DNA of 36,388 nucleotides, taken from contig DASYUQ010000015.1 of assembly GCA_036001065.1 (NCBI GenBank), forward strand, positions 1 through 36,388. The letters run 5' to 3'. The DNA comes from Candidatus Methylomirabilota bacterium. GTDB taxonomy: Bacteria > Methylomirabilota > Methylomirabilia > Rokubacteriales > CSP1-6. The notes beneath the pieces are model-generated. The model had not been told where the DNA came from, made no database searches, and was given only the letters and a program-made list of their open reading frames with translations. The first letter of the stretch is position 1, and each line of letters starts with the position of its first letter. Position numbers and translations under genes: made by a program. Positions 22,233-25,436 of this stretch are shown here, one piece after another.

Positions 22233-22372
22233 TCAGACTCCAGTTCGGAGGCTCGCCTGGGGCGCGGGGGCCCCGGGCCGTCCTGCGGCTCGCACGATCG
22301 GATTCATAGGCTCGCCTCGGACGGGCGGGGCCCAGCCCACCGGCGTCCTGCGGCTCGCACGATCGGATTCAT
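22233..22372 (-). other. Two overlapping repeat-encoded micro-ORFs linking two genes
   Basis: Micro-ORF 1 (22304-22372, 22 aa, MNPIVRAAGRRW...SEASL) starts at an ATG overlapping the TGA of the 4Fe-4S gene (ATGA), with GAGG 7 nt upstream. Its TGA overlaps the ATG of micro-ORF 2 (22233-22307, 24 aa, MNPIVRAAGRPG...), which stops 2 nt before the ATG of the 234-residue gene. The 65-bp period is two-thirds of a codon out of phase, exactly what an ATGA relay needs. Translation is not proven. Confidence 0.35.
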
Positions 22373-22425
22373 AGGCTCGCCTCGGACGGGCGGGGCCCAG
22401 CCCACCGGCGTCCTGCGGCTCGCAC
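22250..22425 (-). repeat. Tandem array of GC-rich repeats, 65-bp period
   Basis: Read on the minus strand, two identical 65-bp units (22361-22425 and 22296-22360) and one diverged unit (about 22250-22295). Each starts GTGCGAGCCGCAGGAC, has a GGGC/GCCC palindromic centre, and ends GTCCGAGGCGAGCC; the first two then carry TATGAATCCGATC. The array fills the whole gap between the 4Fe-4S gene and the 234-residue gene and provides the last residues and stop of the former. Confidence 0.92.
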
Positions 22426-23226
22426 ATCCACCGTGGCGTGACCCAGCCCGAGATTGGTCTTGCCGCGGTACGCCGGGTAGCCCTCGGCCTCGAGCAGCGC
22501 GCGGAGCCGGTCCTGGCCCTGCTCGTCGCACCTCGTCGACACCCCCACCGCGACCACCGTCTCGAGGCGCCGCGACACCCCGCGGATGGTGCGGAGCACC
22601 GTGGGCACCTGCTCCAGGCCGGTCTTGAGCTCGACGATGGCCGACAGCACCTTTTCCCCCAGGATGTCCTCCCGGATCAGGCCCCGGACCTGATCGGTCA
22701 TCAGTGACGTCACCGGGTTCTTCTTCTCGAACTCGACGCCGAGCGCGGCGAGCGCCTGCGTCATCTCCTGGATCTCCCGGAACCAGGCCCCGAGGCCTGG
22801 CCGCCCGAACTCGATGACGAACCCCGCCTCGCCCTCCTTCACCCGCCCCGTCACGTCGTTGGTCTTGACCTCGGCGGTGCCGCGCCCGTGGATACCGGTG
22901 GACTCGTGCGGCACCTGGGGATCGGAGAAGGCCCGCCGTACGATGCGCGGCCAGGTGAGGGCTTGCGGCGTCAACGCGTCGGTGGGGCAGATGTCGGGCT
23001 CGGGATCGAAGCGGAAGCGGAGCCCCTTGGCCACCCGCCGGATGCCCCGGACCATCGGGGGAAAGAGATGCTCCTTCGACATGCCCCGATAGCAGGCGTG
23101 GCACTCGACGCATTCGGCCTGATTCACCCGCGCCCGGCCAATCGCCGGATCGATATAGATGGCGCCGACGGGGCAGACCGGGATGCAGTTGCCGCAGGCG
23201 ACGCACTTGTACTCGTCGATCCTCAT
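22369..23226 (-). CDS. 4Fe-4S ferredoxin-domain protein with repeat-derived C-terminus
   Basis: A 285-residue protein with an N-terminal ferredoxin-like domain. The first cluster motif is standard (C8-x2-C11-x2-C14-x3-C18-P). The second has C39-x2-C42-x2-C45 and lacks a nearby fourth Cys; C80 (PDICPTDAL) may complete it. The remaining ~200 residues are uncharacterised (an REIQEMTQALAALGVEFEKKNPV segment, later RTIRGVSRRLETVVAVGV). Probably an electron carrier for an oxidoreductase of the neighbouring operon. ATG at 23226 with a GGAGGGAG upstream. The family-like part ends at GLGHATVD; the last 18 residues (VRAAGR...SEASL) and stop come from the GC-rich repeat. Confidence 0.8.
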   Translation of the reverse strand: MRIDEYKCVACGNCIPVCPVGAIYIDPAIGRARVNQAECVECHACYRGMSKEHLFPPMVRGIRRVAKGLRFRFDPEPDICPTDALTPQALTWPRIVRRAFSDPQVPHESTGIHGRGTAEVKTNDVTGRVKEGEAGFVIEFGRPGLGAWFREIQEMTQALAALGVEFEKKNPVTSLMTDQVRGLIREDILGEKVLSAIVELKTGLEQVPTVLRTIRGVSRRLETVVAVGVSTRCDEQGQDRLRALLEAEGYPAYRGKTNLGLGHATVDVRAAGRRWAGPRPSEASL

Positions 23227-23293
23227 GCCCGTGCTCCCTCCGCGCCGGTACACTACCGACCGCGGGTCTGACCTGTCAACTTTCGCGCGAGCC

Positions 23294-23758
23294 TCAGGGC
23301 GGCGGCGTGGGGGTCGGGCGGCCGGAGCGGAGATACTTCGCGTCGATCGCGGCGCGGGCCGCCGCGCGCGACTGACCCTCCGCCCGGAGCCGCATCACGT
23401 CACGCGTGATGTCCATGCAGAGGCTTCACGTCGCGGCGTGGCTGGTGAAGGTGACGCGCTCGGCGGTCTCCGCCTTGATGTAGCAGGCGCGGTTGGAGGT
23501 GTGGCCCAGCTCCGCGCACCCGCACGTGCAGGGCACCGAGGCCGCCCAGTCGCCCTCGGTGGCCGCGAAGCGGTAGAGCTCCGCCACCTCGGGCTTCGCG
23601 GCGAAGACGGGCAGCCGCCCCCGCGGGACCGCCTGCACCCGATCGCCGATGCTGTCGATGGTCACCGGGCCTGCACCCTCGCCGCGCAGCCACCAGGCCC
23701 CGGCGGCGAGGGCGAGCCCCGCCGCCAGGAGTCCCACCACGACGGTCCTCCCCGTCAC
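23294..23758 (-). CDS. PCYCGC-motif family protein, probable selenoprotein with Sec at residue 111
   Basis: A 154-residue exported or membrane-anchored redox protein: N-terminal hydrophobic segment (about 5-24), the Cys motif P-C-T-C-G-C (76-81), C92, then FTSHAAT followed by an in-frame TGA (23426-23428) and S-L-C-M-D-I-T-R-D-V, ending in IDAKY plus a Pro/Thr tail with stop at 23294-23296. PCYCGC-family proteins have a conserved C-x-x-C at this spot and the same downstream D-I-x-x-D-V and I-D-x-K-Y pattern, so TGA is probably read as selenocysteine (U111-x-x-C114). An excellent SECIS-like hairpin follows. It starts with GTG at 23758, overlapping the stop of the DUF1285-like gene (GTGA). A caller stopping at TGA would truncate it to 110 residues and lose the second redox pair. 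Confidence 0.85.
23388..23425 (-). promoter_or_regulatory. Candidate bacterial SECIS element of the PCYCGC-family gene
   Basis: Starting at the base after the UGA, the mRNA forms a 38-nt hairpin. Lower stem AGCC/GGCT (23422-23425 with 23388-23391), an internal loop, and a perfect 7-bp upper stem CATCACG/CGTGATG (23405-23411 with 23393-23399) close a 5-nt CGTGA loop. The loop lies 22-26 nt after the UGA with G as its second base, matching the bacterial SECIS pattern closely. Confidence 0.78.
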
Positions 23759-24210
23759 GCGGGTCGCCTCAGGGGGACTTCGCGGCCGCCTAGGCGCAGG
23801 GTCCCCTCGTCCGTCCGCTCGTCATAGTTCGCCAGCGCCAGCAGCTGGAACGCCGCGGCCCGGCTGAAGCGCGCCTCGAAGCCGGCGCCCTTGGCGGCGC
23901 AGTAGGGGACGTTGCCGGCGCCGAGCCTGATCGTCGCCGGATCGACGTCGGTCTCGGTGCCGTCGTTGAGGACGGCGTGCAGCCGCTCGCCGCTCAGCTC
24001 GACCCGCGCGACGACCCAGGGAACGTCGTCCACCTCCACCGGGATCCGCACCCGGGTCTGGATGAAGTAGCCCTGGGGGTCTCGCCGGAGGGTCGCGCGC
24101 AGGTTCGCCAGGACTCCCGGATGCGTGACCTCGACGCCGTCGTCGAGCCAATCGCCGTCGACGTCGATGCGGAGCCGGGGGAGCTTCCTCTCGCTTTCGG
24201 GCGTGGCCAT
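23755..24210 (-). CDS. DUF1285-like protein
   Basis: A 151-residue cytoplasmic protein. The pattern RIDVDGDWLDDGVEVTHP, LRRDPQGYFIQTRV and VEVDDVPWVVARVE resembles the DUF1285 family (typically 'G-x-W-x-x-x-G-x-x-I-x-R, LRR-x-x-x-G-Y-x-L-x-T, V-x-V-E-D-A-P-F'). Family function is not established. ATG at 24210 overlaps the stop of the Memo-family gene (ATGA), and its own stop overlaps the seleno-PCYCGC gene. It is thus locked into a coupled block of four genes (M20 peptidase, Memo, DUF1285, PCYCGC). Confidence 0.6.
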   Translation of the reverse strand: MATPESERKLPRLRIDVDGDWLDDGVEVTHPGVLANLRATLRRDPQGYFIQTRVRIPVEVDDVPWVVARVELSGERLHAVLNDGTETDVDPATIRLGAGNVPYCAAKGAGFEARFSRAAAFQLLALANYDERTDEGTLRLGGREVPLRRPA

Positions 24211-25436
24211 CAGAACACCACGCTGGCGTAGCTGACGACGCCGCGAGGATCCGGCCACTGGCCATAGTGCCGCAGGGCCCCCGCGCCGCCGCCGAGCGCG
24301 CGCAAGAGGGCGTAGATCGGGGAGAGCCCGCAGATCCTCCGCCGGTCGTTGTCGCTCGCGACCGAGTCGAAGAAGGCGCCGGCATCGCCGCTCTCCACCG
24401 CCCCCAGCATGGCGCGGTCCTCCCGCTCGATGCGGCCGAGCTCGCTCGGCGAGACCGGCTGGGGGTCGCCGAAGCGCGGCCCCACGTGGGCCAGGTCGGC
24501 TCCGGCGATGAGCGCCACGCGGCGTCCGCTGGCCGCGATCGTCTCACCCAGCGCCTCGAGAAATCTGGGAACGCGTGGATCGTCTTCGACGCGGCGGCGC
24601 TCGGCCAGCGCCTCGTGGGCGAAGCTGGCGAGGACGGGGACGATCGCGATGTCCCGCCGCCCGGCGGAGAGGTAGCGGAGGAAGACCGCCTGGAACTCGA
24701 TCGAGTGCTCCACGCGGTGCGCCGCCTCGGAGGCGAAGCAGTCCTGGCCCGCGCGCGCGGCGAGCCGCTCGACGAAGTCACGATCGACGGGGGCCGGCCC
24801 GAACGGCGTGTCGTAGTCCTTCCGCGTGAGCGCGAACGGGTCGGGCATCCCGGCGTGACAGGTGCCGAAGATGACGAAGAGGTCGGCGTCGCTCCGCTCG
24901 GCCAGGTCGCGGTAGGCCCACGCGTACGCGGGCCCGCCGCGGTGGTAGTCGATGTGGGGCGCGATCACAGCTCGGAGCCCGTCGGCACGCGCGGCCGTGC
25001 GGTCGATCGCGCCGGGCCCGCCGGAGGTCGTGAAGAAGGCGTCCATCGCCCGGCGAAGCTCCTCCGGATCCGCGGGGTAGGCGCTGTCGGCGTGGGCCGC
25101 CGGCCGGACCGCGGCCGCGAGAAACGCCCCGTCGATCGCCCCCCGCCGGGCCGCGAACCGCACGCTCTCCATGAACCCGTGCTCGTCCAGCGCCGCGATG
25201 ACCTCCTCGATGCCAGTTCGCGGCACGATCTCTCCATGGCGCCGGGCCAGCTCCGCCTGGATATCGAGGATCGAGTGCTGGCCATCGAAGAGCGCCAGCA
25301 CCTCCAGCAGCGGTAGCGGCAGGAGCAAGACCGAAGCCGTGTAGCCGGCCGGGTCGCGGAGCGCGACGAGCCGCTCTCCCTCGTGCTCGACGGGGGAGAC
25401 CTCGATGGATCGGAGCCGGGGTGCGTCCGCGCTCAT
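24210..25436 (-). CDS. Memo-family protein (AmmeMemoRadiSam protein B-like) with N-terminal PqqD-like domain
   Basis: A 408-residue protein. The C-terminal ~280 residues are a Memo domain: APHIDYHRGGPAYAWAY, FVIFGTCHAG, TPFGPAPVDRDFVE, HRVEHSIEFQAVFLRYL and LIAGADLAHVGPRFGD, with His residues at the positions that bind metal in the family. The first ~100 residues (LALFDGQHSILDIQAELARRHGE, then VIAALDEHGFMESV) resemble the small winged-helix PqqD/RiPP-recognition fold, an uncommon fusion. Family biochemistry is unsettled (dioxygenase relatives, copper redox proposals). Starts at ATG 25436, overlapping the M20 peptidase stop. Confidence 0.82.
   Translation of the reverse strand: MSADAPRLRSIEVSPVEHEGERLVALRDPAGYTASVLLLPLPLLEVLALFDGQHSILDIQAELARRHGEIVPRTGIEEVIAALDEHGFMESVRFAARRGAIDGAFLAAAVRPAAHADSAYPADPEELRRAMDAFFTTSGGPGAIDRTAARADGLRAVIAPHIDYHRGGPAYAWAYRDLAERSDADLFVIFGTCHAGMPDPFALTRKDYDTPFGPAPVDRDFVERLAARAGQDCFASEAAHRVEHSIEFQAVFLRYLSAGRRDIAIVPVLASFAHEALAERRRVEDDPRVPRFLEALGETIAASGRRVALIAGADLAHVGPRFGDPQPVSPSELGRIEREDRAMLGAVESGDAGAFFDSVASDNDRRRICGLSPIYALLRALGGGAGALRHYGQWPDPRGVVSYASVVF

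Follow-up and report, generated by a model that had tools for sequence, protein, structure and literature searches.

A predicted selenoprotein gene in a Methylomirabilota genome belongs to a separate branch of the listed PCYCGC (PF13798) selenoprotein family

Selenoproteins of the PCYCGC family (PF13798) are already on record. A 2026 review (PMC13188914) names the 'CYCXC family protein (hypothetical protein OS_HP4), PF13798, UxxC' among the prokaryotic selenoprotein families, with reference to a paper of 2007, and OS_HP4 with UxxC is also listed in a 2022 review (PMC9312934). The NCBIfam entry NF041379 is named 'CYCXC family (seleno)protein', and the table of new families in the deep-Sep paper contains no CYC-type family (PMC12013277). 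A Methylomirabilota genome predicted to carry 63 selenoprotein genes is mentioned in the 2026 review, citing Deng et al. 2026 (PMC13188914), and the gene described here may stand, unnamed, in a list of that kind. The window, meaning the whole stretch of 36,388 nucleotides analysed in this work, is one contig of a 4.46-Mb Methylomirabilota assembly. A gene of the PF13798 family was identified on its minus strand in which an in-frame UGA (23428-23426) is predicted to be decoded as selenocysteine (Sec). The probability assigned to this reading is about 0.9, a figure that covers the recoding and the family, with the mechanism proposed below carrying separate odds.

The gene spans 23294..23758 on the minus strand and encodes 154 residues, from a GTG start at 23758, which overlaps the stop of the upstream gene, to a TGA stop at 23296-23294. 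The read-through frame passes from FTSHAAT through the TGA at 23428-23426 into SLCMDITRDV...IDAKYLRSGRPTPTPPP, where it reaches the stop. The original prediction had given the span as 23388-23758 with no strand; a gene is indeed present there, but it lies on the minus strand and reaches beyond that span to 23294. A plus-strand reading of 23388-23758 was rejected, with nothing relevant encoded. By protein, the closest named relative is Candidatus Rokubacteria bacterium 13_1_40CM_69_27 (93% identity over 105 columns), and the window's own genome carries a second PF13798 gene on another contig (C228), likewise with one TGA.

On comparative grounds the TGA is assigned as Sec at residue 111, the first position of a U-x-x-C motif (U111-S-L-C114; 23417..23428, minus strand). 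A CxCGC motif, which reads CTCGC here (C77, C79, C81), is encoded at 23516..23530 on the minus strand and is a probable metal- or thiol-binding loop, in which we infer metal binding. C77, C79, G80, C81 and C92 were found to be invariant across an alignment of 39 sequences, together with columns 111 and 114 (Sec being written as C). Close to the N-terminus, a hydrophobic helix predicted for residues 3-24 and visible in the sequence (23687..23752, minus strand) is a probable membrane anchor or signal. No lipobox cysteine was found in the window protein; the Thermomicrobium protein has LAACG.

Elsewhere in the window, a second selenoprotein candidate of the peroxiredoxin type was observed at 36-515 on the minus strand, where FYPLDWTPG, TGA and STCMPAFDKR follow one another in frame; read through, its product scores 140.6 bits against AhpC-TSA, and Sec-containing peroxiredoxins are known. 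At about 1455-1541 and 2325-2405, open reading frames on the two strands have translations that both end in LVPFQLFAPRKAPCTSFVDRFS(T/I)NKLERH, which suggests an inverted repeat flanking the intervening gene.

Comparison of the read-through translation with PF13798 gave 74.3 bits against a cut-off of 25, residues 48-154 aligning with positions 42-153 of the 153-position profile, which upholds the assignment to the PCYCGC family made in the original prediction. A search of 95 genomes of the phylum with the same profile returned 81 matches in 70 genomes. Every match is interrupted by TGA, once in 77 and twice in four, with no internal TAA or TAG and no stop-free match. Using a regular expression for C-x-C-x-C followed by U-x-x-C, 77 distinct genes were obtained from the 81 matches, one being a duplicate and three being missed. 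One missed match (L027), read by eye, has a TGA at the same column and a C-x-C-G-L variant, and the remaining two (L094, L111) are short pieces at contig ends in which the TGA was not placed. The 77 genes comprise group A (43, including that of the window), group B (16) and group C (18).

Against NF041379, which has a cut-off of 90 bits, six proteins from groups B and C scored 120-135, the window protein 43.8 and four further group A relatives 55.9-66.9, all of the group A scores being below the cut-off. The window protein is accordingly placed, by sequence comparison, in a separate branch of the listed family that falls outside the NF041379 cut-off. The original prediction had suggested a new selenoprotein family, and this was not supported, as a Sec form of PF13798 with UxxC (OS_HP4, NF041379) was already listed. 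That the family should still prove wholly new is very unlikely given that its Pfam family, Sec column and UxxC motif are all shared with OS_HP4, even though NF041379 does not accept the window protein and a full-text search for PCYCGC led to a passage in PMC13068155 that is unrelated to selenium. The gene is best described as a real selenoprotein gene, as judged by comparison with relatives, in a branch of a listed family that the named model does not cover.

A branch missed by NF041379 is liable to have its genes annotated as short truncated proteins, as was the case in the one annotated Sec-form record encountered, that of Thermomicrobium roseum DSM 5159 (NC_011961). There, the 'PCYCGC motif-containing (lipo)protein' WP_012642643.1 ends at an in-frame TGA (L114 4875-5330), past which the frame stays open through GICIDITRDVMRL..., with the protein's conserved half and the 19-nt hairpin described below both present. 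The existence of this cultured carrier makes Sec insertion directly testable. The T. roseum record was one of 17 matched in a collection of plasmids, the other 16 being from Bacillales. Four of the Bacillales records were opened, and at the Sec column their five proteins have Cys in four cases and Ser in one. On the Priestia megaterium plasmid (L117 6112-6597), a degenerate PCYCGC paralogue was observed in which Ser occupies the Sec/Cys column and PCYCGS replaces PCYCGC.

A DNA pattern was run over 84,980 species, each represented by one genome; it admits TGA, TGC or TGT in the Sec position and requires a continuation resembling TR(D/E)V. The scan identified 70 loci, 63 with TGA and 7 with Cys, all 70 having a C-x-C motif upstream in frame; genes unlike those of group A escape the pattern, and many of the matches recur among the 81 from the phylum. 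According to record titles, the TGA genes belong to Rokubacteria, Methylomirabilota or NC10 and to Chloroflexi and allied titles (Anaerolineae, Caldilineae, Ardenticatenales and Thermomicrobium, including Thermomicrobium sp. CFH 73360), with one each from Gemmatimonadales, 'Deltaproteobacteria' and Luteitalea; those of Bacterium HR27 and HR28 grouped with Thermomicrobium in a tree. The Cys genes were found in four records with the title Chloroflexi, in Thermanaerothrix daxensis and in one record each of Acidimicrobiia and Gemmatimonadetes. The tree (81 rows, few columns) implies at least five changes between Sec and Cys in either direction, three of them forced by well-supported branches; the joining of the long branches L144 and L158 may be false.

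These comparisons bear out the U-x-x-C selenoprotein claim of the original prediction, with Sec aligning with the Cys of homologues and both members of the U/C pair recovered at this column in other genomes. Coding sequence past the TGA is likewise conserved, as had been proposed, about 40 downstream residues including C114 being kept in the organisms sampled; neither an absence of Cys in homologues nor an absence of downstream conservation was encountered.

Downstream of the UGA, a SECIS-like hairpin lies at 23393..23411 on the minus strand and is supported by comparison. It consists of a 7-bp stem (23411-23405 paired with 23399-23393) and a CGUGA loop (23404-23400) located 22-26 nt after the UGA. 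The hairpin of 38 nt first proposed thus stands in its 7-bp upper stem and its CGTGA loop 22-26 nt from the UGA. Its lower part was rejected as unconserved (41.5% of cells paired), and only the 7-bp stem and loop are conserved. A search of 23300-23500 against Rfam returned no SECIS family, with two chance matches far under gathering.

The full 7-bp stem was found in 61 of the 63 TGA genes versus none of the 7 Cys genes. The two incomplete TGA genes (L158 and L180) retain six pairs each, and the Cys genes form five or six. With the window and T. roseum added, the comparison becomes 63/65 versus 0/7 (Fisher P 2e-8, uncorrected for kinship). Correction for kinship leaves three supported independent Sec/Cys pairs, in which the hairpin follows the residue in two, contradicts it in none and shows no difference in one; with only three pairs, two of them informative, a sign test is unable to reach significance. 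Six of the seven Cys genes share the common DITRDVM peptide over the stem, so their loss of pairing occurred at synonymous sites.

In 59 distinct Sec sequences, pairing holds in 99.5% of stem cells, and both sides have changed in two of the pairs. The top pair (24-30), which is a third codon position on both sides, is formed in 59/59 Sec and 0/7 Cys sequences; it is G-C in 57 of the Sec sequences and flipped to C-G in two, L148 (Rokubacteria) and L158 (Luteitalea). This compensatory flip provides the covariance that had been looked for in the hairpin. The Arg codon in the loop is CGT in 49 of the 63 Sec genes, CGG in 14 and CGC in none; CGC is the commonest Arg codon (48%) in 13 genes of the window. 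When codons of group A were redrawn synonymously, all seven pairs were expected in 9.3 of the 41 distinct sequences, as against 40 observed, with a maximum of 22 in 200,000 draws, the sequences being treated as independent and kinship being ignored.

Folding energy was rejected as evidence for the hairpin, as it was not above chance. The window hairpin did not exceed dinucleotide shuffles (z -0.63), and a GC-matched synonymous redraw of it folded equally well in 26% of cases. In the energy redraw test the mean z was -0.84 in group A (2/43 reaching p 0.05), -0.02 in group B (0/16) and -1.24 in group C (5/18). The hairpin is therefore beyond chance by conservation and not by folding energy. Together, the 63 Sec and 7 Cys versions provide a natural control for the requirements of bacterial SECIS elements.

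If the TGA were an ordinary stop, the product would be a protein of 110 residues, with the downstream conservation being a remnant or due to chance. The annotation of WP_012642643.1 in T. roseum ends at the TGA in this manner, the energy of the single hairpin is unremarkable, and SelA and SelB are absent from the window's assembly. This interpretation is nevertheless highly improbable when set against the approximately 40 residues past the TGA, including C114, that are conserved over the organisms sampled, the occurrence of TGA and never TAA or TAG in all 81 matches, the Cys found at the TGA column in relatives and the retention of the full stem in TGA genes only.

Under the Sec reading, tRNA-Sec and SelB would decode the UGA at 23428-23426, with the 7-bp stem and its CGUGA loop, 15-33 nt downstream, as the directing signal. 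In the window's genome, SelD is present and itself bears a TGA (contig C202 25099-26043). In the window's assembly neither SelA nor SelB scored over cut-off and no tRNA-Sec match reached gathering; of nine weak tRNA-Sec matches in this genome, eight were scanned with ARAGORN, which named none of them tRNA-SeC. A genome of the same genus (G087) has tRNA-SeC, SelA and SelB consecutively, and the stretch ahead of these genes matches the end of contig C80 of the window's assembly at 95%. As contig C80 ends 138 bases past this match, a gap is likely, and the absence of SelA, SelB and tRNA-Sec is probably due to the assembly. From the far side of the same-genus locus, only three short pieces were matched elsewhere in the window's assembly; the window's genome could conceivably have lost all three genes.

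Across the phylum, SelB was found over cut-off in 84 of 95 genomes and SelA in 83. The SelD proteins of the phylum are mostly TGA-bearing selenoproteins themselves, with one TGA in most of the matches listed over cut-off and none in six of those listed. A short repeat of approximately 70-100 bases was also observed between SelA and SelB of the same-genus genome (L112 4253-4372); more than 40 matches to it occur in the window's assembly, and no copy was found within the window.

For 38 of the 70 scanned loci, 37 genomes were tested, 33 of which have SelA over cut-off (7/7 Cys carriers and 26/30 Sec carriers). A Thermomicrobium congener of T. roseum also has SelA; a SelA search of the plasmid collection, judged on the 8 listed of 155 rows, yielded no information on Thermomicrobium. 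Loss of the machinery as the cause of the Sec versus Cys difference was rejected because SelA is present in all seven Cys-form genomes.

Read-through of the UGA with a residue other than Sec, such as Trp or Cys inserted by a near-cognate tRNA, would be compatible with the absence of SelA, SelB and tRNA-Sec genes from the window's assembly. The window gene and many homologues also end on TGA, so the codon is not reassigned genome-wide; further, Cys and not Trp is the alternative residue in close relatives, and Sec fits both the hairpin and the relatives' Sec genes. Such read-through is hence regarded as most unlikely, if marginally less so than an ordinary stop, and insertion of Sec is retained as the reading of this UGA.

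An AlphaFold model of the window protein (alignment of 39 sequences; mean pLDDT 91.5) places both the CxCGC loop and the UxxC motif in the stretch joining the first two helices of a small helical domain. Foldseek returned no match for this model with E up to 0.001, and a sequence search of solved structures from the PCYCGC alignment gave nothing convincing (best E 0.16). Foldseek candidates were then compared using VIA-align 2, in which the window model matched the CcmH structures 2HL7 (Z 4.7, rmsd 3.4, 70 aligned) and 2KW0 (Z 4.4, rmsd 3.0, 67 aligned), with the next candidate at 2.8. A separate model for groups B and C (pLDDT 82.7) matched a designed protein (Z 6.1), followed by 2HL7 (5.2) and 2KW0 (4.9), with the next at 3.2. 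CcmH, with its three-helix fold, is the best natural structural match of the two models, where a Z under 8 may mean a common arrangement only.

The redox motif of CcmH is described as being situated in a loop between helices 1 and 2 (PMC3884852). When a profile built from 115 PCYCGC sequences, 82 of which passed filtering, was compared with one of 23 CcmH sequences from the phylum, the U/CxxC motif aligned with the CcmH CxxC. This wider comparison gave a local P of 2e-4 (probability 46%) and a global P of 0.0035 (probability 3.9%), and controls with six column-shuffled and one reversed profile gave P 0.048 or more. A comparison with a narrower alignment was weaker (probability 24%, P 8e-4) and left the CxxC uncovered. 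Pfam identified only PF13798 in the window protein with E up to 1, with no match to CcmH PF03918, and the LRCxxC motif of CcmH is absent from the window protein, which has HAATUSLC where the CcmH sequences read from the phylum have LRCVVC or LRCPVC.

Upstream of the selenoprotein gene, on the same minus strand, a gene at 23755..24258 is weakly DUF1285_N-like (PF06938, 20.2 bits, under the cut-off of 29.3), its stop overlapping the selenoprotein start. The second upstream gene, at 24210..25415 on the minus strand, is Memo-like (PF01875, 136.8 bits) and has relatives at 20 of the 70 loci, and downstream a 4Fe-4S ferredoxin-domain gene was identified at 22369..23253, also on the minus strand (PF00037, 40.3 bits). 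No copper gene was found among the neighbours of the window copy or beside the T. roseum locus.

At many Chloroflexi loci and some others, the next gene encodes a small protein resembling cupredoxin/COX2; a membrane protein with Fer4_5 and then a fusion of COX2 with cytochrome c come after it, as assigned with Pfam on examples from L178 and L168. Using tblastn, relatives of these three genes were found at 22, 20 and 24 of the 70 loci respectively, against 0/53 background loci. A CuA-type motif (C-x3-C-x3-H-x2-M) occurs within 3.5 kb downstream at 22 of the 70 loci (16/63 Sec and 6/7 Cys), a motif that was chosen after being seen, with some loci holding less than 3.5 kb of downstream sequence. 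For the genes of the phylum the motif was present in 2/43 of group A, 0/16 of group B and 0/18 of group C, and background strand scans gave 0/106, the background loci being from the window's phylum and most positive loci from outside it. Relatives of multicopper oxidases were found at 8 of the 70 loci and also beside the second copy in the window's genome. Group C genes are accompanied by a Fer4_5 protein related to the Chloroflexota neighbour at 15 of 18 loci. An ethylbenzene-dehydrogenase-like protein (PF09459) was observed after a group C gene and its Fer4_5 protein (L102 40-1068). Clusters of open reading frames at these loci gave no conclusion because many of the frames are antisense in GC-rich DNA.

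From these features a function can be proposed. The product would be exported and anchored in the membrane, as the N-terminal helix suggests. Its UxxC pair would form a CcmH-type thiol/selenol centre with reducing activity and, together with the CxCGC motif, would handle Cu(I). Copper proteins outside the cytoplasm, CuA domains for example, could then have their cysteines reduced by it, receive copper from it, or both, in the manner of TlpA/Sco-type factors. Such a thiol-selenol and Cu(I) mechanism acting on copper proteins is plausible, with chances somewhat below even. The narrower proposal that Sec-PCYCGC proteins are non-thioredoxin, CcmH-like extracytoplasmic selenol reductases and Cu(I) carriers dedicated to the maturation of CuA and related copper sites is unlikely, with perhaps one chance in four; if true, it would establish a selenium-dependent copper-site assembly factor across several phyla, alongside Cys versions that occur naturally in an equivalent gene order.

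A protein into which Sec is inserted could also have a general role in metal resistance or thiol protection and not in the maturation of copper enzymes, for which the prospects are only just short of even. Copper or heavy-metal genes were seen beside three of the four opened Bacillales plasmid loci, with none obvious at the fourth, a finding that counts towards the copper-handling mechanism as well; the surroundings of these three Cys-form loci are P-type ATPases, cation diffusion facilitators or ArsR/SmtB regulators. One group B locus that was examined likewise has an HMA-domain (heavy-metal) P-type ATPase directly upstream. Against such a general role stands the CuA-motif protein found downstream at 22 of the 70 loci, including six of the seven Cys forms. 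Should the copper-site role hold, selenium would be linked to the assembly of copper enzymes.

TlpA reduces ScoI and COX II (PMC6696091), and the likeness of the window protein to TlpA/Sco is in proposed role only, namely keeping CuA cysteines reduced and supplying copper outside the membrane. TlpA/Sco proteins differ in being thioredoxin-like, and no sequence relation to the window protein was found (PF13798 being the only Pfam match). With the N-terminal domain of CcmH (2HL7, 2KW0), the window protein shares, in its predicted model, a redox motif between helix 1 and helix 2, but it has an additional CxCGC loop and beta hairpin and neither a PF03918 match nor LRCxxC. The Bacillales PCYCGC motif-containing (lipo)proteins are alike in their long architecture and PTPTP tail and differ in having 24-30% identity and Cys in place of Sec. 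OS_HP4 and NF041379 share with the window branch PF13798, the C-x-C-x-C motif followed by C and U-x-x-C, a homologous Sec column and a stem with a 5-nt loop after the UGA. The window branch is distinguished from them by a CY-to-HA spacing that is longer by approximately 10 residues, modelled as a beta hairpin, by frequent TSHAATU ahead of the second Cys, by a usual C-terminal PTPTP tail and by a stem that is placed and spelled differently.
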